Shown here: positions 4,155 through 29,039 of the stretch, one piece after another
How positions within the stretch are numbered: the stretch's first letter is position 1
How the letters are laid out: each line of letters starts with the position of its first letter
From: Anaerolineae bacterium
GTDB taxonomy: Bacteria; Chloroflexota; Anaerolineae; Aggregatilineales; Phototrophicaceae
Assembly: GCA_021296115.1 (NCBI GenBank)
Contig: JAGWBC010000007.1
Location: 1 to 37,565, forward strand
Direction: 5' to 3'
DNA: 37,565 nt
The notes under the pieces: model-generated
The model's input: only the letters and a program-made list of their open reading frames with translations
Database searches by the model: none
What the model was told of the DNA's origin: nothing
Program-made: the position numbers and the translations under genes

Positions 4155-4670
4155 CTAGGGCTCAACCAGCTGCGCCAGAATCTCCTCAAAAGCGGCATCC
4201 GCCAGCGCCTGAATCTCGGCGTCGCTGCGATCTTGAATCGGATGCTGCACGTAACAGGCGGCCGGTTCAAAACCAAGCGCCTGCCCCTGCGCCGCTGCCG
4301 CCTCGACGAACTCGCTCGAAGCGACGAACATGCCGGGAATCCCGCGGGATTCGAGGTCCGTGATGTCATGCACACTGCACGACGTGCACGAGCCTCAATC
4401 GGCCAGCGCTTCAATTACCAGATCGCATTCGCTGACGATCTCTTGCTTCAGGTCAACCGGGGCGACGCGCGCAAATGTCGGCTTCTCATAACGCCGCGTG
4501 TCGACGCCCAGGCTCTGCAAATGCTGCTGCACACGATCCAGAAAGACATCGCCGCGCGGCTTGGAGATATCGAGCAAAGCCACGCGCTTGTCGACCAGAG
4601 ACTTGGGGCGCGGCAGGGCGTCTCGCGCTGCGGCTTGGCCTTCGCTGGTCGGGTCGAGTAATTTGATCAT
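4155..4670 (-). CDS. UGSC-family selenoprotein (in-frame UGA read as selenocysteine)
   Basis: 171 aa if the UGA at 4397-4395 is read as Sec92; otherwise a 91-aa fragment. A strong AGGAGGT Shine-Dalgarno (4674-4680) precedes ATG at 4670. The UGA sits in the same frame as a long conserved continuation, ALAD-U-GSCTSCSVHDITDLESRG, giving the U-G-S-C motif of the UGSC (seleno)protein family, with Cys95 and Cys98 close by. UxxC-type spacing suggests a thiol/selenol redox centre. An 8-bp hairpin follows the UGA (see 4366-4391). It lies 22 bp downstream of a thioredoxin-fold gene, a plausible redox partner. The family reaction is not known to me. Naive gene callers would report two short ORFs here. 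Confidence 0.88.
4366..4391 (-). promoter_or_regulatory. Candidate bacterial SECIS hairpin in the UGSC gene
   Basis: Reading the minus strand, UCGUGCAC (4391-4384) pairs with GUGCAUGA (4373-4366), eight pairs with one G-U, around a 10-nt loop GUCGUGCAGU that begins with G. The stem starts three bases after the UGA. A G near the start of the apical loop is a common bacterial SECIS property. The loop begins 12 nt after the UGA, slightly closer than the usual range, and a competing short hairpin (UGCAC/GUGCA) exists. Confidence 0.6.
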
Positions 4671-4692
4671 GTTTACCTCCTGCTATGCTTTT

Positions 4693-6162
4693 TCAAGTTT
4701 GGATTGCTACCGTCACCGGTACGCTGCCCTTCGGCCCGTTGGCGGCCCAGCCGGTTATCACAGCCGACCACATGCCAGCGCCGCCGCCGGCGTGCACGAT
4801 CAACAAGCCGCCGGGCCGGAATTTGCGCAGCCGTTTGTCCGCTAGGCCTTCGGGCATGCCCACTGCAATATCATCGGCGCCGCGTATCACTGTGTGCCCG
4901 GCGACCGTCGTGTGCTTTTCCAACTCGCTGCGGAAGCGCGCTTTGCTCCAGCCAGCATCACGGAAGACCCGCATATGCTCGGGCGAGATGATCAGCAGAG
5001 CGTCCGCGCCGTTGTAAGCTTTGGCGTGATGGACGGTGCGCAGCGACAGCGCCAGGCTGCGCGTCAGAGATTCGGGGCTGCGGGAGGCCTGATCGCCTAT
5101 GGGATGAACGCCGCCGCCAGCGAATAGCGTCACGGTAGACTCGTGGGCCGCGAAGCCCCGCTCCACCGCCAGCGATTCCCAGTATGAGTCCTGCTCGCGC
5201 TCGGCAAAGCAGAAGCCGATTTTGCCCGGCTGTCCCAGCGTGGCGCGGTCGACGCCGCCCGGCCGCCCGCCGCCGACATTACGAATCACCAGCTGCAGCG
5301 CCCGGCCGATGGTCGCGTTGGCGCGATTGCCCTGCCCAAGCACGTTGTGACTCCAATTCATGCCGATGCGATCGCGGATGGGCCCGTTAACGATGAGGAT
5401 AGGCGCTGAGAAATAAGTCGTCGCCAGGACGCCGTGCATGCAGAATTCGTCGCGGCAGGCCGCCTCCACCGCCGCCAACACCACCGGCAGGTATTCCGGT
5501 TTGCAGCCCGCCATAACCGCGTTAATCGCGACTTTTTCAACCGTGCAGGGCGCATTGTCGGGCGGGATCACACCCACAAGCTCTGAGGGCGAGCGCGTCG
5601 TCCCGGCCAGCATGCGCAGCACGCGAGCTTCGGTCGGCGGCACAACAGGCAGCCCGTCCGACCAGCCGCGCTCGAAGACGAGTTCATGCTCGTCTTGCTG
5701 TGAAGCCACCTCAATGCGTCGCGCCTGCAAGGGGCTGTCGCCGAACTTAAAGGCCAGTTTCTCAGGCATGCCGGGATCGACCGACTTGGAGCCGCAGCCC
5801 GGGCTGAAGACCGGCAAGTCTTCGCCAAGCGCAGACAAGGCGGTCAGCCGGCGCCAATCGTCCCGCTGCCATCCCGCCAGCCGCTCTATTTCCTGGCCGG
5901 CATTCATGCGCATCAAGGTCGGCACGATTTCGATATCGTGACGGTAGGAAAACTCTAGCTCGCCGTCGTCATTTACCTCATCGACGCCTGGCGGAAACCC
6001 GGGATCGTCTTGAGAATACACCTGCAAGTCAAGCTCGCCGGCCATGTCGGCCAACACATTCTCGATCAGCCGGCAGGTGGCGCAGTCGCGCTTGACCACG
6101 GCGATGAAGCCGGAGTAACCCTCGGGAATAATTGCATTCGCTTGCCGCGTCGTTGCTGCCAT
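4693..6162 (-). CDS. Thioredoxin-fold protein with large conserved C-terminal domain, UGSC partner
   Basis: 489 aa. Residues about 15-110 look like a thioredoxin fold, with a C27-A-T-C30 redox motif after VVKRD and a cis-proline-like EIVPTL segment. Residues about 160-489 form a conserved domain I cannot name, opening with ERGWSDGLPVVPPTEARV and containing KVAINAVMAGCKPEYLPVV and NATIGRALQLVIRNVGGGRPG. From memory this domain recurs beside UGSC proteins, but no enzyme activity is known to me. The UGSC selenoprotein follows 22 bp later behind a strong RBS, indicating an operon. A TACAAT box (6174-6169) ends only six bases before the ATG, so transcription may be leaderless. No signal peptide or transmembrane segment is seen. 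Confidence 0.82.
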   Translation of the reverse strand: MAATTRQANAIIPEGYSGFIAVVKRDCATCRLIENVLADMAGELDLQVYSQDDPGFPPGVDEVNDDGELEFSYRHDIEIVPTLMRMNAGQEIERLAGWQRDDWRRLTALSALGEDLPVFSPGCGSKSVDPGMPEKLAFKFGDSPLQARRIEVASQQDEHELVFERGWSDGLPVVPPTEARVLRMLAGTTRSPSELVGVIPPDNAPCTVEKVAINAVMAGCKPEYLPVVLAAVEAACRDEFCMHGVLATTYFSAPILIVNGPIRDRIGMNWSHNVLGQGNRANATIGRALQLVIRNVGGGRPGGVDRATLGQPGKIGFCFAEREQDSYWESLAVERGFAAHESTVTLFAGGGVHPIGDQASRSPESLTRSLALSLRTVHHAKAYNGADALLIISPEHMRVFRDAGWSKARFRSELEKHTTVAGHTVIRGADDIAVGMPEGLADKRLRKFRPGGLLIVHAGGGAGMWSAVITGWAANGPKGSVPVTVAIQT

Positions 6163-6664: not shown

Positions 6665-7270
6665 CTACTCGTAATCTTCTCTGCCCTCAGTCCAATATCG
6701 CTCCAGCGAGACGCCCAGGCCATCCGCGATGCGGTTGACATAGGCATAATAGGCGACCACCTGCGCGATATCCAGGATAGCGCGGTCGCTGAAACCGATA
6801 TCACGAAGCTGGGCGATATCCGCTTCGGCCATGTCCCCGGGCGCGCGCGTTAATTTGGCGGCATAATCCAGCATCTGCCTGTCCGCCGGCCTAAGGTCAG
6901 CTTTGCTGTAGTCCTCTTCCATGTGGGCGGTTAACTCCTGGTCTGCAGTCAACTGACGGAGGTTGGGCGCATGATGCCGCAGTCAGTACTCGCAGCGGTT
7001 GATCGCCGAGCCCACCACGCCGATCATTTCACGCTGGGCGCGCGAGAGCGGCGATTCGCCGTACATCAGCGTCTTGTACAGGTGCTGATGGTCCAGCAAT
7101 GAGGCCGGGTTGAGACTGTGGATCTTCATGATGTGATCAACATGACCTGACTTTGGGTCGGCGGCCCGGCGATAGGCCCGCTCTAATTCCCCAGTCGCCT
7201 TATCTTCAGCAACCGTTTCGATCCAGGCTACGGGATTGCCCGCTGAGTTGTGGGGTCGGTTCTCGCTCAA
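6665..7270 (-). CDS. AhpD/CMD-like peroxidase-related selenoprotein (CxxU)
   Basis: 201 aa when the in-frame UGA at 6985-6983 is read as Sec96. The product matches carboxymuconolactone decarboxylase/AhpD-like 'peroxidase-related' enzymes across both halves: KIHSLNPASLL and LSRAQREMIGVVGSAIN before the UGA, then HHAPNL and IGFSDRAILDIAQVVAYYAYVNRIADGLG after it. The AhpD redox motif CxxCxxxH appears as C93-E-Y-U96-L-R-H-H100, so Sec replaces the resolving Cys position. The predicted role is thiol/selenol-dependent peroxide or disulfide chemistry in the cytosol. A TTG start at 7270 is preceded by AAGGA seven bases upstream. It sits 12 bp after the Cys-cluster gene, probably as one operon. Confidence 0.88.
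6943..6985 (-). promoter_or_regulatory. Tentative SECIS-like structure after the AhpD-like gene's UGA
   Basis: On the minus strand after UGA (6985-6983), CUGCGG (6982-6977) can pair with CUGCAG (6948-6943). Above an asymmetric internal loop, CAAC (6965-6962) pairs with GUUG (6953-6950), leaving an 8-nt apical loop that starts 22 nt after the UGA. Position is suitable for a bacterial SECIS, but the pairing is short and the loop lacks an early G. Treat it as a hypothesis. Confidence 0.3.
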
Positions 7271-9211: not shown

Positions 9212-10399
9212 CTAAATATAGGATTCGATGATGCTCATCAATTCGCGGGCGCGGTGGCGGAAAGTATGCTGTTTCAATACGCGCTCGCGGGCCGCCCGGC
9301 CAATTGCCAAGCGCTCGCCTTCGTTGGCGAGCAAGTATCGGTAGCGCTCGACCGCCTCTTCTGGCGAGTGAACCACGACTGCTTCTTTGTCCGGCTCAAA
9401 CCATTCCGCGATGCCCTCGTAGGGATTGGCCACGATGCAGGCGCCCATTGCAGCCAGCTCGAAAGGCCGCGATGACGACGAGGCATATACGCTGGCGTGC
9501 GCGCCGCGCGTAATGCAGAGATTGAGCTTGCTGCGGCAGACGTATTCGCGCAGCTTGCTGAAGCTGAGATAGGGAAGCTGCCGCGCTTGGCCCAGGTCGC
9601 CCAGGTTAAGCCCGCGCACGGCGAATTGCGCCTCAGGCAATTGGCGGGAGGGCGCCGTTATCATGCCCTCGATCCATTCGGAGCGGTATTCGCGTCCGTG
9701 TCCATAAAAGAATACGTCCAGGTCTTGTGTCGGCGCCGCTGTTGGACTGAATACATCTGGATCCGCGCCATACCAGACGGTATGGGCATACCTGGCGCCG
9801 AGCTGGCGCAGCAGTTCTTCACCGCCTTTGCTGTTGCTGATGAAAGCCGTGTACTCGGATAGATCAGCGCCTTGATAAATGCGAAAGCCAGAGGCAAAGC
9901 CACGCATATTAGGCAGGCTGGCCGGCACATCGCCATCGAAATAGAGGACCGGCAAATCGAACTTGTCCGACAGGTAGCCGGGCAGGCCCGTCAAGTGATT
10001 GAGCGGAATTGTCAATAACAGCAGAGCGTCAAAGTCCGGCTCTCGCGTCAGAATCCGCTCAAGATGCCGGCGCCATACCGGAGCGATAAAGGTCTGCGCC
10101 GTCTTACGGATAGCTCTGTCCGAAAGCCCATCGCCCGCGGACGCGCCCTCGCTGACCCTTGCGCGGCGCGGCCGAAGCGAGCGAGACAGCTCGCGCAGAG
10201 CTTTATACGCGCTGCCCTGCCAATGCGCTGGATTGGGATAGGAGCGCCACCATAGGCTCTCCACCGCTGCGCCTTGATAGGGAGCGGCGACAAGATCCAC
10301 GCCCAACTCATAAAGCCCCTTCATGAGCTGCCACCAAGCGGGCGTGGCGCTGAAAGGCTGATTCAGATCAAGCGAAGATACCACGACAAGTAGCTTCAT
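9212..10399 (-). CDS. CgeB-like glycosyltransferase family 1 protein
   Basis: 395 aa. It starts with a Rossmann-type strand MKLLVVVSSLDLNQ. The C-terminal third carries the GT-B donor-site pattern: CITRGAHASVYASSSSRPFELAAMGACIVANPYEGIAEWFE, then a segment ending RYRYLLANEGERLAIGRAARERVL. This matches the CgeB-like/Glyco_trans_1_2 group. The predicted role is transfer of a sugar from a nucleotide donor to an unknown acceptor in the cytoplasm. An AAGG precedes ATG 10399. No polysaccharide or lipid biosynthesis genes lie beside it to indicate the substrate. Confidence 0.82.
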   Translation of the reverse strand: MKLLVVVSSLDLNQPFSATPAWWQLMKGLYELGVDLVAAPYQGAAVESLWWRSYPNPAHWQGSAYKALRELSRSLRPRRARVSEGASAGDGLSDRAIRKTAQTFIAPVWRRHLERILTREPDFDALLLLTIPLNHLTGLPGYLSDKFDLPVLYFDGDVPASLPNMRGFASGFRIYQGADLSEYTAFISNSKGGEELLRQLGARYAHTVWYGADPDVFSPTAAPTQDLDVFFYGHGREYRSEWIEGMITAPSRQLPEAQFAVRGLNLGDLGQARQLPYLSFSKLREYVCRSKLNLCITRGAHASVYASSSSRPFELAAMGACIVANPYEGIAEWFEPDKEAVVVHSPEEAVERYRYLLANEGERLAIGRAARERVLKQHTFRHRARELMSIIESYI

Positions 10400-20307: not shown

Positions 20308-23300
20308 TTGATTTACCTTTCATACCACAACATCGATATCGATTACGCTTTTCGGCTTTCAACCTTGCTGATTCGCTGTTACCGCAACATTTGGCTGGAC
20401 CGCTTCGAGATTCTTCCCACCGCGAACTGGCCGGAGGAGACGCGCGCCGCGCGCGATCGGGCGACCAGCGTAATCGCCGTTGTTTCAGACGACTATCTGC
20501 AGTCGGCGGCTTGTCGCGCGGAATTCGAACATTTTCACGATCGAGGCATCGCCGTCACCGCCGTCATCGCGCGCGATTTCTCCACCGATCGCATCAGCGG
20601 ATTCACCTTCAACGACTGGGTCGACTTTCGGCGCTGGTTTGACGAACCTGATGACCGCAGCGTGGAGAACTTGCTCAGCCAATTCCCGCAGTCGGAATCG
20701 GCGCCGCCGGCGGGCGAACGGCTGGACTACTTGCGGGGCTTCATTCACCAGACGGAGCTCGCCTTCGCCAAGATGCCTACATCGTGGGCGGCGCTGCGCA
20801 ATGGCGACGCGGCCAATGCGGACGATATTCGCCCGCGCATGGTCCACACGGACTTGCTGCAAGGTTGGGAATTTGTCAGCGCGAAATCGGGCAATGAGCT
20901 GCCGCTGGAGAATCTGCTGACCTGGTCGCAGAATGAAGCGCAGTTCATGCTGCTGGGCGAGCGCGGTTGCGGCAAGACCACTTTCGCCCGGCTGCTCGCG
21001 CTGGAACAAGCTCACGCTGCCCTGCGCGACGACGGGGCGGCCCTGCCCATCTGGCTTGATCTCTCGCTCTGGCAGGACAACTGCCCTTCAGTCGACGCCT
21101 TCATTGAATCGCAGTGGCCCTTGCTGTCATACTGGCAGCACTGGCTTGAAGGACATCAAGCTTTTTTCGTTCTGGATAACTGGAATGACTTCCAAAAGAC
21201 CTGCCCCGGCATGGCTGCCGACTTCTGCGACTGGATTGACGCCAGCCCGGACCAGCGCTTCGCTCTGCTCGCCGATGGGCCCAGCAGCAGCGACCCAGCT
21301 CTGCCCTCGGCGCGCTTCACGCCCTTGAATCCGCAGCTGGCGCAGAAATTCGCGGCCGCTTTTCTGACCCTCGATCAGCAGAGCGGATTCCGGCAGATTT
21401 TGCGGCAAAAAGAGGCGCTGATTCAAGACAGCCAACTGGCTTATCTGTCGCTCGGCGTGGAGTTGGCTTCAGCCGACCGGGCGCTCGCTTTCAACGCCTG
21501 GCATAGCAATCCAATCGGCGCGGCAGTTCGGCTGCGCAGCCAGCAGATTCCGCCGCGGGCGATTGCGCTGACCGCAGAGATGACCTTGTCTTCGCTGCGG
21601 GCGCTGGCTTGGTCGATGATGTTGCAGGGCAACCACCGCACAATTGCGCGGGCCGATGCGGAACAGCAGACCTCGGACAGCCAGGTTATTGAGTACGCGC
21701 TGGAGCTCGGTCTGATGATCGAGTCCGGGGGGCGGATTCGCTTTGAATCTGAAGCTATTCAATACTACCTCGCCGCTGAAAACCTCAAGAAAGACGGCTT
21801 AATCAAGTATTTGACTCGGCCGGAATTCGACCCGGAACAAGGCCGAGCGCCGCGCAAGTGGGATCAACTGGCGCTGGTCGTGGTGGACTCGCTGAGTGAC
21901 GAGCAGCGCATACGCGTGGTCCACCAGATTGCCGACACAGACCCATTTCTGGCGGCGATGTGTACGCGGCTCCACCCGGACGACTACGCCAGTTGCCAAG
22001 AGATGCTGGTCAAGAAGCTGGTTCAATTGTGCGCGCAAAACCCCGCCGCTCAAGGCGCGTTTCGCGAGACCGTGGCGGGCTTGCCCGATCCGCTGCAAAC
22101 GGCCGAATTACTGATCGCCCAGGTGGGTCAGCAGAGCAATCCCGTTCAGCTGTGGCTCTGGCGCGAAATCTGCGCTCTGCCGCTGGACTTGCCGGTTGCT
22201 TTCGTAGAGATTTTGTCGGGCTTTGAGCGCGACGAATCGACCACGTTGGCGGAAGAGCTGGCCGAATACAGCCTGCCGCACACACTCGCATACCTCTTGC
22301 GGCTGACGCAGAACGACGACAAACAGCTGCGCCGCAATGCGCTCTGGGCCTTGGGCGAATTGAAGTATCTGCCCGTGGCCATTCTGCTGCTGGATTATCT
22401 GGAGCGGGCCGAACGGGACGATCTAGGCGAAGTCTTGTCGGCGTTGATGAACTTCGCCTACTCCGAAATCTTGGTGCGGGTGCTGCGCTGGTCGCAAGGC
22501 AATGCCTGGCATCGCGATACGGTGATCGCGGCTCTAGCGCGGCGAAAACGGGGCGTGACCAGTCGGCTGCTGGCCTTTGCCGACTCGCGCCGCTTGACCT
22601 TGAGCGCCGATTTCTATGACTTGGTCGCCAATACTGACGAGCGGGATATCGCCATTGGCCTGGCGCAAATCATCGGCGAACAGGTCGACTTGTCGGAGTC
22701 GGTTGAGACCGCCTTACTGTCCGCCAGAGATGCCGACGCTTTACGCGGGCGCATCGCCGGCGCCATCACACACCTGCCAAACCGCGAAGGCTTCCAGCAG
22801 TTGGCGCAAGACATCGAGCAAGTGCTGCAAGATCCGCCGGAACCGACCGTGATCGCCGGCAGCAGCCTCGATGCGCTGCTCTATGGGCCGACAGTCTTCG
22901 ACGAGATCTCGGCGCTGTCGGCGCAGGCTGGCGGCGCCATTCCACCAGACTTGCTCCAGCAATTGAGACATGGAGACTGGCAGCGGAGACATCGTGGCGT
23001 CAGCGGTTTGTCGGGAGTCGCGGCGGCTGATGCGCTCCCGCATCTCTTGCAGGCCACGGCAGACGAAGACAATCGCGTACAATTGGCGGCCTACGAAGTG
23101 CTGGCGAGATTCGACGACGAAACAGCTCAGAAGGCGCTTGTCGCAGCCTTGTCAGATGCAGATATCGAGATCGTTGAATCGGTGACCAATTTGCTGCAGG
23201 GGACCTCCCTGGCGGATTACGACCCGCTGATCGAGCTGCTGGACAGCGGCAATCCGACTGTGGTCGCCGCGTCCATTGCGATTCTCGCCGGCGCCGGGCA

Positions 23301-24231
23301 GCGACATGCTGCCGAAGCGATTGAGCAACTGCGCGACGACCCGCGACAGCCGGCGCAAGGCGCCCCGACCATCGGGCAACGCGCGCGCGCGGCCGTCCAA
23401 CAATTGGCGGCGACAGGCGCAGAATCGCTCGACGGTCCTGCTGTGCCGTACAACGGCAGCCAAGCGACATTCAGCGACGCGGAAAAGATCAGGCGTACGC
23501 TGGATGTGCTGCGCGATGACGATTGGGGCCGGACGCAAAAAGCGGCCAAGTTCTTGCGCAAATTCGCCCGCCACATGCGCGGTCGCGACAATTCCGAAAT
23601 ACGCAGCCTGCTCTGCGCTGCCCTGGACGACAGCAACTGGAGTGTGCGTTGGGCGGCGGCCGAGGCCTTGGCCATGCTGCATGATCGAGCGGCAGTCCCC
23701 CAGCTGCAAGCTTGCCTTAACGACCCGAGCTGGATCGTACAGGTGGCGAGCATCCGCGCGCTGGTCGAGCTGGCGGCGCTGGATGCCGCGCCACACATGC
23801 TGCCGCACTTAAATAGCAGCCAAAAGCCTGTGCGCGAAGCCGCGGCGGAAGCTCTGGGCGAGCTGAAATACCGCGACGCTATCCAGCCCTTGGGCGACGT
23901 CTTAAAGCGCGAGCGCGATGAATTTGTGCGATTGGCGGCGCTAACAGCCATCTACCGCATCAGCCCGGCCGAGGCGCGCCCCTGGCTGGAATACGCCCTC
24001 AGCGACAGCTACATGCATATCCGTGTTTTCGCTATGGAGCGGCTGTCGCCCGCTTTGAACGAGAGCGATCTGCCGGTTCTGCGTCAGTTGCTGATGGACG
24101 ACGAGCAGCCCTCATGGGAAGGCGAATCCGTCCGCGACATGGCCCTGCAAGTATTGCGGCGGATCAACGGCGAGGAAAGCCGCGCGCTGCTTGACTCGCT
24201 GGGCGCCACCGAAAATCGGACCAGCGCATGA
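20308..24231 (+). CDS. TIR / STAND-like P-loop ATPase / HEAT-repeat protein
   Basis: 1307 aa. Residues 1-110 are a TIR domain (IYLSYHNIDIDYAFRLSTLL, then SVIAVVSDDYLQSAACRAEFEHF), with Glu72 at the position of the catalytic NADase glutamate. A P-loop FMLLGERGCGKTTFAR lies near residues 214-228, with a Walker B-like AFFVLDNWNDF about 65 residues later, giving a divergent NACHT/STAND switch. From about residue 560 to the end are HEAT-like repeats, for example LRRNALWALGELKYLPVAI, VRWAAAEALAMLHDRAAV and VREAAAEALGELKYRDAI. I infer a ligand-sensing HEAT array that releases TIR NAD+ cleavage. The start is TTG 20308, immediately before the TIR first strand; an ATT at 20296 is possible. ATGA overlap couples it to the next TIR gene. 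Confidence 0.85.
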   Translation: MIYLSYHNIDIDYAFRLSTLLIRCYRNIWLDRFEILPTANWPEETRAARDRATSVIAVVSDDYLQSAACRAEFEHFHDRGIAVTAVIARDFSTDRISGFTFNDWVDFRRWFDEPDDRSVENLLSQFPQSESAPPAGERLDYLRGFIHQTELAFAKMPTSWAALRNGDAANADDIRPRMVHTDLLQGWEFVSAKSGNELPLENLLTWSQNEAQFMLLGERGCGKTTFARLLALEQAHAALRDDGAALPIWLDLSLWQDNCPSVDAFIESQWPLLSYWQHWLEGHQAFFVLDNWNDFQKTCPGMAADFCDWIDASPDQRFALLADGPSSSDPALPSARFTPLNPQLAQKFAAAFLTLDQQSGFRQILRQKEALIQDSQLAYLSLGVELASADRALAFNAWHSNPIGAAVRLRSQQIPPRAIALTAEMTLSSLRALAWSMMLQGNHRTIARADAEQQTSDSQVIEYALELGLMIESGGRIRFESEAIQYYLAAENLKKDGLIKYLTRPEFDPEQGRAPRKWDQLALVVVDSLSDEQRIRVVHQIADTDPFLAAMCTRLHPDDYASCQEMLVKKLVQLCAQNPAAQGAFRETVAGLPDPLQTAELLIAQVGQQSNPVQLWLWREICALPLDLPVAFVEILSGFERDESTTLAEELAEYSLPHTLAYLLRLTQNDDKQLRRNALWALGELKYLPVAILLLDYLERAERDDLGEVLSALMNFAYSEILVRVLRWSQGNAWHRDTVIAALARRKRGVTSRLLAFADSRRLTLSADFYDLVANTDERDIAIGLAQIIGEQVDLSESVETALLSARDADALRGRIAGAITHLPNREGFQQLAQDIEQVLQDPPEPTVIAGSSLDALLYGPTVFDEISALSAQAGGAIPPDLLQQLRHGDWQRRHRGVSGLSGVAAADALPHLLQATADEDNRVQLAAYEVLARFDDETAQKALVAALSDADIEIVESVTNLLQGTSLADYDPLIELLDSGNPTVVAASIAILAGAGQRHAAEAIEQLRDDPRQPAQGAPTIGQRARAAVQQLAATGAESLDGPAVPYNGSQATFSDAEKIRRTLDVLRDDDWGRTQKAAKFLRKFARHMRGRDNSEIRSLLCAALDDSNWSVRWAAAEALAMLHDRAAVPQLQACLNDPSWIVQVASIRALVELAALDAAPHMLPHLNSSQKPVREAAAEALGELKYRDAIQPLGDVLKRERDEFVRLAALTAIYRISPAEARPWLEYALSDSYMHIRVFAMERLSPALNESDLPVLRQLLMDDEQPSWEGESVRDMALQVLRRINGEESRALLDSLGATENRTSA

Positions 24232-25949
24232 AGATCTTCGTAAGTTACGCGCGGGCGGATAAACCCTACTGCATTCGCATCATCGAAACCTTGCACGCCC
24301 ACGATGTCTGGTACGACCAGCGCCTCTACGCCGGCCAAGACTGGTGGAAGGAAATCCTCAGGCGGCTGGATTGGTGCGAGGTCTTCCTTTACTTGCTCTC
24401 GCCGGATTCGGTGACTTCGCAATATTGCCGGCGCGAGCTGGAACTGGCGCTGCGGCTGAAGCGCGACATCATCCCGGTGCTGATCACCAGAGACACCGTG
24501 CTGCCGGAAAATATGCGCGATTGGCAGTATGTCGATTTGAGTGACAATTTGACGGTCGAAAATGTGTCACAGCTCTTGAACGCCATCTTGATGGTGGAGC
24601 GCCAGAAAGCGGCTGAACCAGCGCCGGGGGCGGAAGTTGAGATCTCCGAAAGCCGAGCGGATTCGTCAGCCAACCCGGCGGAAACCATAAGCAATGCCGT
24701 TGGCGCGCTGGAAAAGGGCGATTACCGGCGTGCCGCGCGTTTGCTGCGGCGAGCCAAGGCCAGCGGCTACCAGTCGCGTTTCGTCAAGATCGACAAGCTG
24801 CTGCAAGTGGCGGAATCCGCGCTCAAGGAGCGTAAACAGACGCGGGAAGTCGAACGCGAGTATCAGCATATCGTGGCCCTATTCGCCTTTGAGAGCACAC
24901 GCCAACTGGCTTGCGAGACGCTGGAAGAATTCCGGCGCGAATTCGGCGACTACGATCCGCGCGGATTGCGCAAGTTGTGCAAACCCGCCGCGGCTGAGGG
25001 CAATGCGAACAGCCGACCTCGTAACGCGAACAAGTTTCAGCCTACACCGAGCCCGCGGCGCGTCGCTACGTCCCCGCCGCCCTCAAGCAAAAGGCCAGTC
25101 GCGCGCGCGAGCAGTCAGGCGGTACCGGATCCGCCAGCCGGACGCGGCGCCCCCGCACCTTCTCTCAAGGCCACAGCCCAGGCGGAAACGCCGAGGCGCC
25201 TGCCAGACGCTGACGCGCCGCTCACGGTAAAGGAAGTTTTGCCTATGCTACAATGGTGTGACATCCCGCACGGGACGGTCACGGTCTCCAGTATCGTAGG
25301 CGCGGATGAAGACTTCGGCGAGATGACGGTGCAGGTGGACAATTTCGTCATGAGCAAGTATCCGGTGACCAACGCGCAATTCGCCATCTTCGCGCGAGCG
25401 GAAGACGGCTACAAGAATTCGCGCTGGTGGACCTATTCGGAGCATGCGCAACGCTGGTTCAAGCTGGGCAAAGGCGTGGCCGAAGCGCGCTTCAGCGGCG
25501 AAAAGCACCCGCGCGAGAACGTCAACTGGTACGAAGCCATGGCCTTCGCCAATTGGCTCGGCAGTTTGCTCAAGATGAAAGTGGCCCTGCCCACAGTGGC
25601 GCAATGGCAGCGCGCCGCCCAAGGCGATGACGACCGCTATTTCCCCTGGGGCGATGAGTATGACGAGGAACACTGCAACACGCTGGAAACCGGCTTGAAG
25701 ATGACGACGCCGGTCAACCGCTATCATCAGGGGGTCAGCCCCTATGGCGTATACGATATGGCTGGCAATATATGGGAGTGGACGATGAACACCGCAGCCG
25801 CGGCTGACGAGGGCCGGGATCGTCGGCGGGCGGTCGCCGGCGGCAGTTACGTCAGCCCCTGCGATCGCGCGCAGACTTCATTCCGCTATTATTTGGATCC
25901 GCGTGTGCGTTATTCATCAATTGGCATTCGACTCGTCGGCTTGACGTAG
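24228..25949 (+). CDS. TIR domain protein with C-terminal FGE/sulfatase-modifying-factor-like domain
   Basis: 573 aa. Residues 1-125 are TIR (MKIFVSYARADKPYCIRII, then LYLLSPDSVTSQYCRRELELAL), with Glu70 as the expected NADase residue. Residues about 145-235 are helical. Residues about 250-335 are a Pro/Ser/Arg-rich linker. Residues about 340-573 are an FGE-like C-type-lectin fold: FVMSKYPVTNAQFAIF, HPRENVNWYEAMAFANWLG, DDRYFPWGDEYD, VYDMAGNIWEWT and AVAGGSYVSP. The FGE active-site cysteines that follow GGS(Y/W) are absent, so formylglycine synthesis is unlikely; a binding role is inferred. ATGA overlap with the upstream TIR-HEAT gene implies coupled expression. Confidence 0.88.
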   Translation: MKIFVSYARADKPYCIRIIETLHAHDVWYDQRLYAGQDWWKEILRRLDWCEVFLYLLSPDSVTSQYCRRELELALRLKRDIIPVLITRDTVLPENMRDWQYVDLSDNLTVENVSQLLNAILMVERQKAAEPAPGAEVEISESRADSSANPAETISNAVGALEKGDYRRAARLLRRAKASGYQSRFVKIDKLLQVAESALKERKQTREVEREYQHIVALFAFESTRQLACETLEEFRREFGDYDPRGLRKLCKPAAAEGNANSRPRNANKFQPTPSPRRVATSPPPSSKRPVARASSQAVPDPPAGRGAPAPSLKATAQAETPRRLPDADAPLTVKEVLPMLQWCDIPHGTVTVSSIVGADEDFGEMTVQVDNFVMSKYPVTNAQFAIFARAEDGYKNSRWWTYSEHAQRWFKLGKGVAEARFSGEKHPRENVNWYEAMAFANWLGSLLKMKVALPTVAQWQRAAQGDDDRYFPWGDEYDEEHCNTLETGLKMTTPVNRYHQGVSPYGVYDMAGNIWEWTMNTAAAADEGRDRRRAVAGGSYVSPCDRAQTSFRYYLDPRVRYSSIGIRLVGLT

Positions 25950-26006
25950 ACGTAAAATCGCGACAGCCTAACAAGTCTGAACCGGGAAAACGAAGGGAAA
26001 GTAGAG

Positions 26007-26402
26007 ATGGAATCAAGCGAACGCAGCCTGGACAAGTCAAGACCTTTTCGACCTGATATCAACATCGACATCGACAGTCTTTCAGTGACGGGCCACCTCG
26101 TCTTCGCGGGCCGCGACGGACAGGTCAAAGTGCAGACGGGCGGCGACGTGGCGCAGCATACCAACCAGACCGTCACCGTCGGCGGCGTGGAAACGACGCC
26201 GCAGGAACTCGATATGATGCTGCAGTGCATACGCAATGTCGAGCAGACGATTAATAAAGAACAGCAGCTGCAGCCGGAATCGCGCGAGGCGGCCATGCAT
26301 GATCTGCAAACGGTTGAAGCGCAACTGACCACCAGCAAACGGCCGAATCCCACTGCTGCGCTTCTCACCAGCGCTAACGGCGGCCGCATTGACCCTCTTT
26401 GA
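26007..26402 (+). CDS. Small beta-motif protein of the conflict locus (apparently frameshifted)
   Basis: 131 aa as read. Residues about 17-60 are beta-rich and repetitive (INIDIDSLSVTGHLVFAGRDGQVKV, then GGDVAQHTNQTVTVGG), followed by a charged helical segment. The GHLVFAGRD motif recurs in the NACHT protein downstream. The frame ends at 26402, but the +1 frame is open from 26329 to a TAG at 26499 and encodes a hydrophobic helix that looks like the natural C-terminus (LTLFDQPLVGAILASAGEVA). One base gained or two lost near 26340-26375 would explain this. Without the shift the protein would be about 163 aa. No named family recognised. The start follows GGGAAAG, 57 bp after the TIR-FGE gene. 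Confidence 0.6.
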   Translation: MESSERSLDKSRPFRPDINIDIDSLSVTGHLVFAGRDGQVKVQTGGDVAQHTNQTVTVGGVETTPQELDMMLQCIRNVEQTINKEQQLQPESREAAMHDLQTVEAQLTTSKRPNPTAALLTSANGGRIDPL

Positions 26403-26499
26403 CCAGCCGCTTGTGGGCGCGATACTCGCCAGCGCCGGTGAGGTGGCCATCAATTTCACCGAAGCCATCGCGCGGCACCGGCCCGGCAAGAAGATCTAG
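26403..26499 (+). pseudogene. Displaced 3' coding tail of the small beta-motif gene
   Basis: In the +1 frame relative to the upstream gene, codons run openly through LFDQPLVGAILASAGEVAINFTEAIARHRPGKKI and stop at TAG 26497-26499. No start codon with an RBS precedes it, and its amphipathic/hydrophobic composition matches a protein C-terminus better than random translation. It is either a real inactivating frameshift or a base error. The remaining gap to the NACHT gene (26500-26630) shows no gene. Confidence 0.5.
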
Positions 26500-26630
26500 G
26501 GACTGCGCGCCTGCTTGCGGTCGCCCTTGCCTTCCGGCCTGGCTCGGCCGACGGCCGATATCGCCTGCCGCCTTCCCGGGCTACGAGCGGCTAGCGACTA
26601 GATGACCTCCTTCGAAACTGAGATGAACCA

Positions 26631-29039
26631 ATGAATCAGCAGCTGCCCAAGCAAAGCCAGAACGCCATCGTAAACGCGAGAGCGGCGGCGCCTGCGCAAC
26701 TCATGATCGCCTCGCCGACTGCCTGGCGCGAATTTGTGCAAGCCAATTGGAGCGGGCTCAAGCGGCAGGCCGACCAATCCACGCTGGCGTCGCCTTATCA
26801 GAAGCTGGTGATGATGGTCTTCACGCCCGTCATGCCCAACCCGACCACCAAGCTGACCTTGCTGCGGCGCTTATTGAAGAAGTATCGCTATTGCGGGCCG
26901 CTCAGCAAGCGCTTGACCGAAATCTACCGCGACCGCAATTACGCGCGCACGGCTGAAGAACTGGCGCGCGATGAGCTGCTGCCCGAGAAGCTGGACCGCG
27001 ACGAAGTCATCGGGCTGGATTGGCTGATTGTGGCCACGGGCGGATTGGACGGTTCGGCCAGCCAGGGCGCGCAAGCGATACAGTTTTCGCGCAATCTGCT
27101 GGAAACCATGCGCGGATACCGCGATTACCCATCGGCCGTGCGTGTGCAGGCGGGCACGATCACCGCGGGCGGCCATGTCATCTTCGCCGGCCAGGACGTA
27201 AATATCGTGGCCGAGCATTACCACGGCAACAAGTCAGCGCTGAAAGCCTATCTGGCGGCCGTGCGCACCGAATGGGACATCCCGACCACAACCATCCACC
27301 CGGCTTCGCAGCATCATACCTCGGCGGCGCTGCATCAGCTGTATACGCCGGTCGACATCTGGACCGACCAGCGGCAATTTCACAATGTGGGCGTCGAGGA
27401 GTTAAACGCCCGCCGTTACCAGGCCATCGAGAAGGACATGGGTTATGTGCGCGAATCCGTTTTCGAGGTCATCGCGGCCCATCCGCTGATTGTGATCACC
27501 GGCGCCGCGGGCACCGGCAAGAGCTCGCTCTGCCGCTTCATCGTCACAGCGCTGGCCTACGCTTGCGATCCGCGCGCGGAGCGTCAGAGCAAGGTCAAAG
27601 GGCTGGAGATGCTGGGGCCCTCCTGGATCCACGGGCCGATTCTGCCGATCTACGTCAGCCTGCGCGACTTTGCCAATACGCCGGAATTGTTCCCGAAATC
27701 GCTGGGCGATAGCTCGGCGAGTCATCTGCTGAATTACGTCAAGGGGGCCACCGGCAATCTGGCGCCGCATTTGGAAGCCTATCTTACGCAAACGGACGTT
27801 CCCACCCATGGCAGCCTGCTCGTGCTCGATGGCCTCGACGAAGTCTATGAAGAGAGCGACCGCATCATCTTGCAGCGGATCATCGAAAATTGGGCCGATC
27901 GCTTTCCCAATTGCCGAATCATCGTGACCAGCCGCACCTACGCTTACCGTCACGACTCGCGCTGGCGGCTATCAGAGCGCTTCGCCTCGGCCGAATTGGC
28001 GCCCTTTACCTGGCAACAGGTCGCGACCTACATTGAGCGCTGGTACGCCAATGTCGCCGAAAATCGCCCCGGCGTATTGGGCGGGCGAGCCATGGCGGCC
28101 AAGCAAGCATCGCTCATGGCCAGCGACCTCAACAAAACCATACGCGAGACGCGCGCGCTTTGGCCTCTGGCCCGGCAGCCGCTGATGCTGGCGCTGCTGA
28201 CCATGATTCACGAAGATTACAAGCAGCTGCCCGATAAACGCGCCGAGCTTTATGAGCACACAGTCGAGCTGCTCGACCGCTGGAATATCCCCTCGCCCGC
28301 CGACAAGCTGCACGAGAAGCTGGCCAACATCAACCTGGACAGAATGCGCGCCGCGCTCAAGCTGATCGCCTTCGAATTACACTCCGAGCAGCGCAGCTAT
28401 CAGCGCTATCCGACTATCATCCAGCGCGCGCGTCTGCTGGACAAACTGATCGAGCAACAGTCCATGGGCGGCGGCTTGGGCGCGGGCATCGAAGATGTGC
28501 TGGAGTACCTGGCCACGCGCAATGGCATCCTGGTGTCGGACGCGCCTAATCTATACCGCTTTCCTCACTTGACCATCCAGGAGTACCTGGCCGCCTGCGC
28601 CCTGCTGGAATTCTACGATGAATGCCGCATGCCGGCCGAATTGCGACCGCAGAGCGCCGAGGGCTGGGTGTTCCCGCAGAATATCGTCGCGCTGCTCTGC
28701 CACGACTATGCGCGCTGGCGCAACGTCGTGCTTTTCGCCGGCGCCATCATCGCGGCGGGCAAGTGGCAGGATATGCGCTGGCAGCTGATTGACGAACTGC
28801 TGCCGACTCAGCTGAACCGAGACTTGCCGGAGCAGGAGTTGCATTGCATCAGCGTGGCAGCTGAGATCTGGGGCGAAAGCTGGCTAAAGTCGCGCACGCG
28901 CAGTCAATTCGTCATCGAATCGCACCTGGTACAATGTCTGCGGCATATCCACGGCGACGAACGGATTGACGCGCCGGAACGCGCCAACAATTACACCATG
29001 CTCTCGCGACTGGCGAAATCGCAGCCGGCGCGCGCCTAA
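26631..29039 (+). CDS. NACHT-domain STAND NTPase
   Basis: 802 aa. Walker A GAAGTGKSSLC near residues 291-301, Walker B LLVLDGLDEVYE near 396-407 with the D-x-x-D-E pattern of NACHT, then CRIIVTSRTYAYR (sensor 1) and the helical NACHT-associated region with FPHLTIQEYLAACAL near residue 640. Residues 1-165 are helical and probably an effector-associated adaptor region. Residues about 170-195 carry a beta segment (AGTITAGGHVIFAGQDVNIV) shared with the small gene upstream. There is no leucine-rich, TPR or WD repeat tail. It stops soon after the C-terminal helices, at a point where relatives often continue into a sensor domain. It likely acts as an ATP-dependent switch in a defence or self/non-self system. 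Confidence 0.88.
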   Translation: MNQQLPKQSQNAIVNARAAAPAQLMIASPTAWREFVQANWSGLKRQADQSTLASPYQKLVMMVFTPVMPNPTTKLTLLRRLLKKYRYCGPLSKRLTEIYRDRNYARTAEELARDELLPEKLDRDEVIGLDWLIVATGGLDGSASQGAQAIQFSRNLLETMRGYRDYPSAVRVQAGTITAGGHVIFAGQDVNIVAEHYHGNKSALKAYLAAVRTEWDIPTTTIHPASQHHTSAALHQLYTPVDIWTDQRQFHNVGVEELNARRYQAIEKDMGYVRESVFEVIAAHPLIVITGAAGTGKSSLCRFIVTALAYACDPRAERQSKVKGLEMLGPSWIHGPILPIYVSLRDFANTPELFPKSLGDSSASHLLNYVKGATGNLAPHLEAYLTQTDVPTHGSLLVLDGLDEVYEESDRIILQRIIENWADRFPNCRIIVTSRTYAYRHDSRWRLSERFASAELAPFTWQQVATYIERWYANVAENRPGVLGGRAMAAKQASLMASDLNKTIRETRALWPLARQPLMLALLTMIHEDYKQLPDKRAELYEHTVELLDRWNIPSPADKLHEKLANINLDRMRAALKLIAFELHSEQRSYQRYPTIIQRARLLDKLIEQQSMGGGLGAGIEDVLEYLATRNGILVSDAPNLYRFPHLTIQEYLAACALLEFYDECRMPAELRPQSAEGWVFPQNIVALLCHDYARWRNVVLFAGAIIAAGKWQDMRWQLIDELLPTQLNRDLPEQELHCISVAAEIWGESWLKSRTRSQFVIESHLVQCLRHIHGDERIDAPERANNYTMLSRLAKSQPARA

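Follow-up and report, generated by a model that had tools for sequence, protein, structure and literature searches.

Selenoproteins of the UGSC family (NF041046, PF24696) have been known since 2008, when relatives proved abundant in aquatic metagenomes, with 255 selenocysteine (Sec) versus 21 cysteine sequences in the GOS survey (PMC2398784). A thioredoxin fold was suggested at that time, and the same paper mentions the fusion of UGSC to a domain termed 'Unknown_1' (PMC2398784). UGSC proteins decoded from UAG were reported earlier for the Geodermatophilaceae, as cited in PMC5330540. The literature found names no reaction or function for the family. Two further groups of described proteins invite comparison: the Sec domain of GrdB, GrdF and PrdB (TIGR01917, NF040794, TIGR04483; PF07355 region) and the thioredoxins together with other UxxC redox proteins.

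The window analyzed here, a stretch of 37,565 nucleotides from an Anaerolineae genome, contains one more member of the UGSC family. Length, UxxC motif and insertion of Sec at UGA are all shared with the other members, and nothing differs in kind; the window protein belongs to a clade whose partner protein (hereafter P) bears a thioredoxin-like domain. The UAG-decoded proteins agree with it in family and motif, whereas the window gene uses UGA. Comparison with GrdB, GrdF and PrdB reveals a common U-G-[ST]-C-[TN]-x-C, a common E-x-x-G-[IL]-P and a similar following segment; in contrast, UGSC lacks the N-terminal PF07355 part, and its partner, as compared with GrdE, does not appear to be GrdE/PrdA-like. 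With thioredoxin and other UxxC proteins, UGSC shares the redox motif, but it is predicted to be Rossmann/flavodoxin-like, and the thioredoxin-like domain sits on the partner.

The UGSC gene and its in-frame UGA

Inspection of the minus-strand translation reveals a continuous frame from 4670 to 4155 (171 codons followed by TAG), in which a lone TGA at 4397-4395 falls on the U of U-G-S-C-T-S-C. The Sec codon (4395-4397, minus strand) specifies residue 92 within ...LADUGSCTSCSVHD..., such that U92-G-S-C95 forms the UxxC motif. Standard translation without recoding ends the open reading frame at 91 aa. A ribosome-binding site, AGGAGGT (4675-4681, minus strand), lies 4 bases ahead of the ATG. The product scores 149.5 bits against NF041046, 'UGSC family (seleno)protein' (curated cut-off 125, span 3-146/147), and 139.4 bits against PF24696 (curated cut-off 25, span 2-171/172).

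Across the 301 genomes of the phylum, the family occurs in 32, with 69 matches, 66 of which contain exactly one in-frame TGA. Elsewhere in the phylum, as many as 11 copies are present in one genome. Nearly all copies retain Sec, which is uncommon among selenoprotein families and matches the GOS proportions given above. The nearest relative of the window protein, from an Anaerolineae MAG (L095), retains the UGA and is 82% identical in amino acids before it and 87% behind it, with dN/dS values of ~0.11 and ~0.09, respectively. Since dN/dS is equally low behind the UGA, that portion of the sequence is translated and selected. In the UGSC tree, the window copy falls within a five-member Chloroflexota clade (100/93), itself nested in a larger well-supported group that holds nearly all of the thioredoxin-bearing partners. 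A second cysteine, C98, is not conserved beyond the clade of the window protein. Natural Cys-for-Sec variants are rare and comprise fused UGSC-P copies without TGA in L083 (11382-11921) and L161 (1-541), the latter reading GHCSTC.

A different codon occupies the Sec position in Candidatus Blastococcus massiliensis (L126), where it is TAG (9653-9655). The tRNA-Sec of this organism carries the anticodon CUA and is called tRNA-Pyl by ARAGORN. The pairing of TAG with a CUA tRNA-Sec offers independent support, at the level of sequence, for the residue being Sec. Taken with the family profiles, the conserved TGA and the selection on either side of it, the comparisons show that 4155-4670 (minus strand) encodes a UGSC-family selenoprotein of 171 aa, with Sec92 in a UxxC motif and predicted to be inserted via a SECIS directly behind the UGA. 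The initial annotation had anticipated much of this from the letters of the DNA, and its single-UGA frame, strong ribosome-binding site, conserved coding on both sides of the UGA and UGSC identity (for which it asked for a database search) are all borne out, as is its statement that the family has no assigned reaction.

SECIS hairpin and selenocysteine machinery

Folding of 4397-4350 places a core hairpin at 4365-4383 (minus strand), GUCGUGCA-GUG-UGCAUGAC, in which an 8-bp stem begins 11 nt after the UGA and the GUG loop (4373-4375) follows 19 nt after it. The whole predicted fold, UGA included, extends over 4352-4397 (minus strand) with a minimum free energy of -23 kcal/mol and a z-score of -2.95. 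Covariation accompanies the fold: among 119 distinct relatives, a mean of 7.05 of the 8 pairs is kept versus 4.62 in synonymous-codon shuffles, sliding the arm by one to three bases leaves at most 4.4 of 8, and compensatory swaps between G-C and C-G occur at pairs 17-25 and 18-24. The minimum energy of the region also falls below that of synonymous shuffles more often than is the case for five control regions drawn from these genes (mean z -1.25 versus -0.3 to -0.8). The published bSECIS model describes a stem of 4-16 bp, a loop of 3-9 nt with G in one of its first two positions, a distance of 16-37 nt from the UGA and an energy of -7.5 or lower (PMC13188914); the stem of 8 bp, the GUG loop, the spacing of 19 nt and the -23 kcal/mol found here all fall within it. 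That is to say, the initial annotation was right to expect a SECIS behind the UGA and wrong about where it begins. The 8-bp hairpin it had drawn three bases after the UGA (TCGTGCAC/GTGCATGA) can be written down but is neither the stable pairing nor the predicted fold, and its loop would lie 11 nt after the UGA, outside the published 16-37 nt.

The genome itself is a draft of 302 contigs that is 83% complete. Of the four sel genes for which a search had been proposed, selA (561 bits), selB (344 bits) and selD are present, all above curated cut-offs, whereas no tRNA-Sec (selC) was found in this assembly with RF01852 or with a specific tRNA-Sec pattern. The only RF01852 match above the gathering score was rejected as selC after ARAGORN and cmscan identified it as tRNA-Ser(UGA). 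By comparison, all 11 other genomes searched contain a tRNA-Sec (58-83 bits), among them a close relative (G302, which holds L095) and a member of the same family (G240). Given its presence in the near relatives tested, we attribute the absence of selC to incompleteness, and the gene probably lies in sequence that this assembly lacks. The selD gene (G000:C105:30895-31830, L016) contains an in-frame TGA near its N-terminus (SCAGUAAK), and SelD is thus itself a predicted selenoprotein. In the phylum as a whole, selA exceeds its cut-off in 243 of 301 genomes and in 31 of the 32 with UGSC; it is too common for its occurrence to discriminate genomes with the family.

Partner protein P and gene neighborhood

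Immediately upstream, with a gap of 22 bp between its end and the UGSC start codon, lies the gene for the partner, a protein of 489 aa (4693-6162, minus strand). Its main domain, the P domain of about 345-350 aa (4705-5736, minus strand), belongs to no Pfam or NCBIfam family; searches of both collections with the partner returned no known family other than a weak thioredoxin match. That match covers an N-terminal thioredoxin-like domain with a CATC motif (6073-6084, minus strand), whose CxxC is conserved; an N-terminal CxTC domain of this kind marks the full-length form of the partner, to which the window protein belongs.

The association of P with UGSC was surveyed from both sides. In the fetched Chloroflexota loci, P lies within 700 bp of UGSC or on the same chain, in either order, for 49 of 52 UGSC hits; the three without P comprise one at a contig edge, one fragment of 41 residues and one real absence (L051). 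A second survey started from P and covered 82 P domains of GTDB genomes, 71 of which have a Sec-UGSC gene just downstream. The other 11 include the UAG gene of L126, a gene truncated at a contig edge ahead of its Sec codon (L111) and the fused Cys copy of L161. In two more, UGSC is divergently adjacent; in three, it occupies another part of the retrieved stretch; and the last three are close to a contig end or on a short contig. Comparison of loci therefore shows, in terms of gene order and fusion, that UGSC likely works with the P protein found upstream of it here, adjoining or fused to it in almost every genome. The thioredoxin-like CxxC is present in the N-terminal domain of 81 of the 82 partners in the GTDB set, and the thioredoxin domain is missing from many Chloroflexota UGSC-P pairs. 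The P domain itself contains many near-invariant polar residues and no invariant cysteine; the invariant residues include D169, T207, N214, T249, N282, R287, E321 and W328 (numbered along 4696-6162). The 'Unknown_1' domain of 2008 may be the P domain (PMC2398784).

Attempts to place P among known proteins included homology to GrdE or GRDB, which was discarded for lack of similarity (GrdE/PrdA family PF09338; hhalign of the P domain against GrdE, probability 0.1, E 0.6). A fold search with a model of the partner, whose N-terminal 140 residues are poorly modelled as a result of most alignment rows lacking them, returned weak and mixed matches to class I fumarase, chorismate mutase and cyclic amide hydrolases (Z at most 6) and gave no assignment.

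Genes for Sec synthesis and insertion adjoin the pair in a number of genomes. Nine loci have selA beside UGSC-P and seven have selB, in every case encoded on the strand of the pair. The run of Pseudohongiella sp. O18 (L134) comprises P, UGSC, selA and selB and ends with tRNA-Sec (G307:C2:511753-511843). This suggests that, in bacteria with such linkage, the UGSC protein is a main client of the Sec machinery. Other neighbors are a thiolase, downstream in eight gammaproteobacterial loci, and an acyl-CoA dehydrogenase, an SDR and transporters elsewhere; clustering of gene neighbors gave no hint of a shared substrate.

The window holds further genes of note. Upstream of the pair is another predicted selenoprotein gene (6665-7270, minus strand; UGA at 6983-6985), of carboxymuconolactone decarboxylase/AhpD-like type with CEYU as its CxxU motif. 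Standard translation splits it into two open reading frames; PF02627 scores 49.7 bits when read through versus 17.7 and 20.5 for the halves. No strong SECIS is predicted behind its UGA; L095, L096, L097 and L099 also retain the CxxU form upstream of their UGSC pairs. Farther along, a run at 20308-29039 (plus strand) encodes a TIR-NACHT-HEAT protein (1307 aa), a TIR-FGE-sulfatase protein (573 aa), a small protein and a NACHT/STAND protein (802 aa), and resembles a signalling or phage-defence cluster.

Fold, kinship and proposed reaction

An AlphaFold2 model of UGSC built from 43 family rows (pLDDT 95.6) consists of five alternating strand-helix units, with Sec92 directly after strand 3 at the start of the next helix. 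Its neighbors by Foldseek and VIA-align are flavodoxin, receiver and other Rossmann-like alpha/beta domains. The model thus predicts a Rossmann/flavodoxin-like alpha/beta fold, not a thioredoxin fold. The thioredoxin topology, in which UxxC follows the first strand and the chain ends in a beta hairpin and helix, is absent from the model (E-H x5, with no consecutive strands). No thioredoxin chain appears among the top rows of the structure search, which proves nothing alone, and sequence searches of solved structures returned no credible relative of UGSC or of the partner.

Kinship is evident instead with the glycine and proline reductases. Aligned by hhalign to the Sec-bearing C-terminal part of GRDB from the same phylum, the UGSC profile reaches an E-value of 8e-10 over 92 columns, among which are U-G-[ST]-C, E..GIP and hP. 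With seven motif columns masked, the E-value is 5e-6, versus 8e-3 for the best of 60 column shuffles. The NCBIfam matches of 43 UGSC members, each of them weak, fall to GrdB (20), GrdF (15), the general selenoprotein B model (7) and PrdB (6). By sequence comparison, UGSC is accordingly shown to be a distant relative of the Sec domain of the glycine/sarcosine/betaine and D-proline reductases, with the GrdB alignment confined to the C-terminal ~90 residues. PF07355 matches neither the UGSC protein nor anything in its genome. UGSC may work like GrdB and PrdB by analogy; it is not filed as a member because P is not GrdE-like and PF07355 is absent from protein and genome. Unlike the GrdB/PrdB system, UGSC also occurs in lineages of mostly aerobic bacteria. 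The GrdB/PrdB homology, the Rossmann/flavodoxin-like fold, the P linkage and the sel-gene linkage are new relative to the literature searched, which consisted largely of papers available without subscription and in which the GrdB/PrdB kinship goes unmentioned.

We think it probable, by analogy with these reductases, that UGSC and P constitute a two-component, thioredoxin-coupled Sec reductase in which a new partner replaces the pyruvoyl subunit (GrdE/PrdA). From the parts, linkage and homology that the comparisons show, we infer each catalytic step as follows. P would bind and activate a small organic substrate, whereupon the selenolate of Sec92, positioned where beta strand 3 ends, would attack an electrophilic carbon or heteroatom; as in GrdB and PrdB, a reductive cleavage of a C-N or similar bond could result. 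C95 would then resolve the adduct on selenium, giving a selenenyl sulfide that the thioredoxin-like CxTC domain at the N-terminus of P would re-reduce. The chemistry may differ from that of glycine or proline reductase, since P has no similarity to GrdE or GRDB.

Alternatives concern both the decoding of the UGA and the role of the pair. Were the UGA an ordinary stop, the gene would specify a 91-aa protein with the remainder decayed or separately translated, as the 91-aa frame from standard translation and the failure to find selC in the 83%-complete draft would allow; selection persisting behind the UGA, its presence in nearly all relatives across several phyla, the covarying SECIS and the Sec machinery genes of the genome render this extremely improbable. 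Under another reading, which follows the 2008 proposal of a thioredoxin-like protein, UGSC would be a redox protein of the thiol-disulfide or peroxide type; Sec92-C95 would form a plain UxxC pair, and P would serve it as a protein client or as a scaffold. The motif itself, the CxTC domain on the partner and the presence of an AhpD-like Sec protein in this gene run fit such a role, which we nevertheless judge rather unlikely: in the model, strands and helices alternate, Sec follows strand 3 and the structural neighbors are flavodoxin/receiver-like, the sequence kin are GrdB and PrdB, the near-invariant polar residues of P resemble those of a substrate-binding enzyme, and up to 11 UGSC copies per genome suit substrate diversification.

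Placement of the pair directly beside selA-selB in several Gammaproteobacteria and Actinomycetota, with selC as well in Pseudohongiella, could also point away from a metabolic enzyme and toward a selenium-handling accessory, for example one that carries or senses selenium on behalf of the Sec pathway itself. However, most loci, the window included, are not beside sel genes, many genomes encode several paralogues, and the GrdB/PrdB relatives are metabolic enzymes. A Sec-requiring protein for making Sec would also be circular, although SelD demonstrates that this can occur, and altogether an accessory role appears improbable.

Returning to the two-component reductase, UGSC proteins rank with the most abundant selenoproteins of aquatic metagenomes (PMC2398784), yet no function is named for them in the literature found. 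Through GrdB/PrdB kinship, a near-obligate partner with a thioredoxin-like domain and selA-selB-selC operons, the family gains an enzyme hypothesis that can be tested, for which Pseudohongiella sp. O18 and Blastococcus are cultured hosts of the pair. Tentatively, UGSC and P may represent a class of two-component, thioredoxin-coupled Sec reductases that has not yet been named. It would have evolved from the Sec domain of GrdB/PrdB while acquiring a new partner for substrate binding, would be common among aquatic and soil bacteria from several phyla and, in some lineages, would have its genes located with those for selenocysteine synthesis and insertion.
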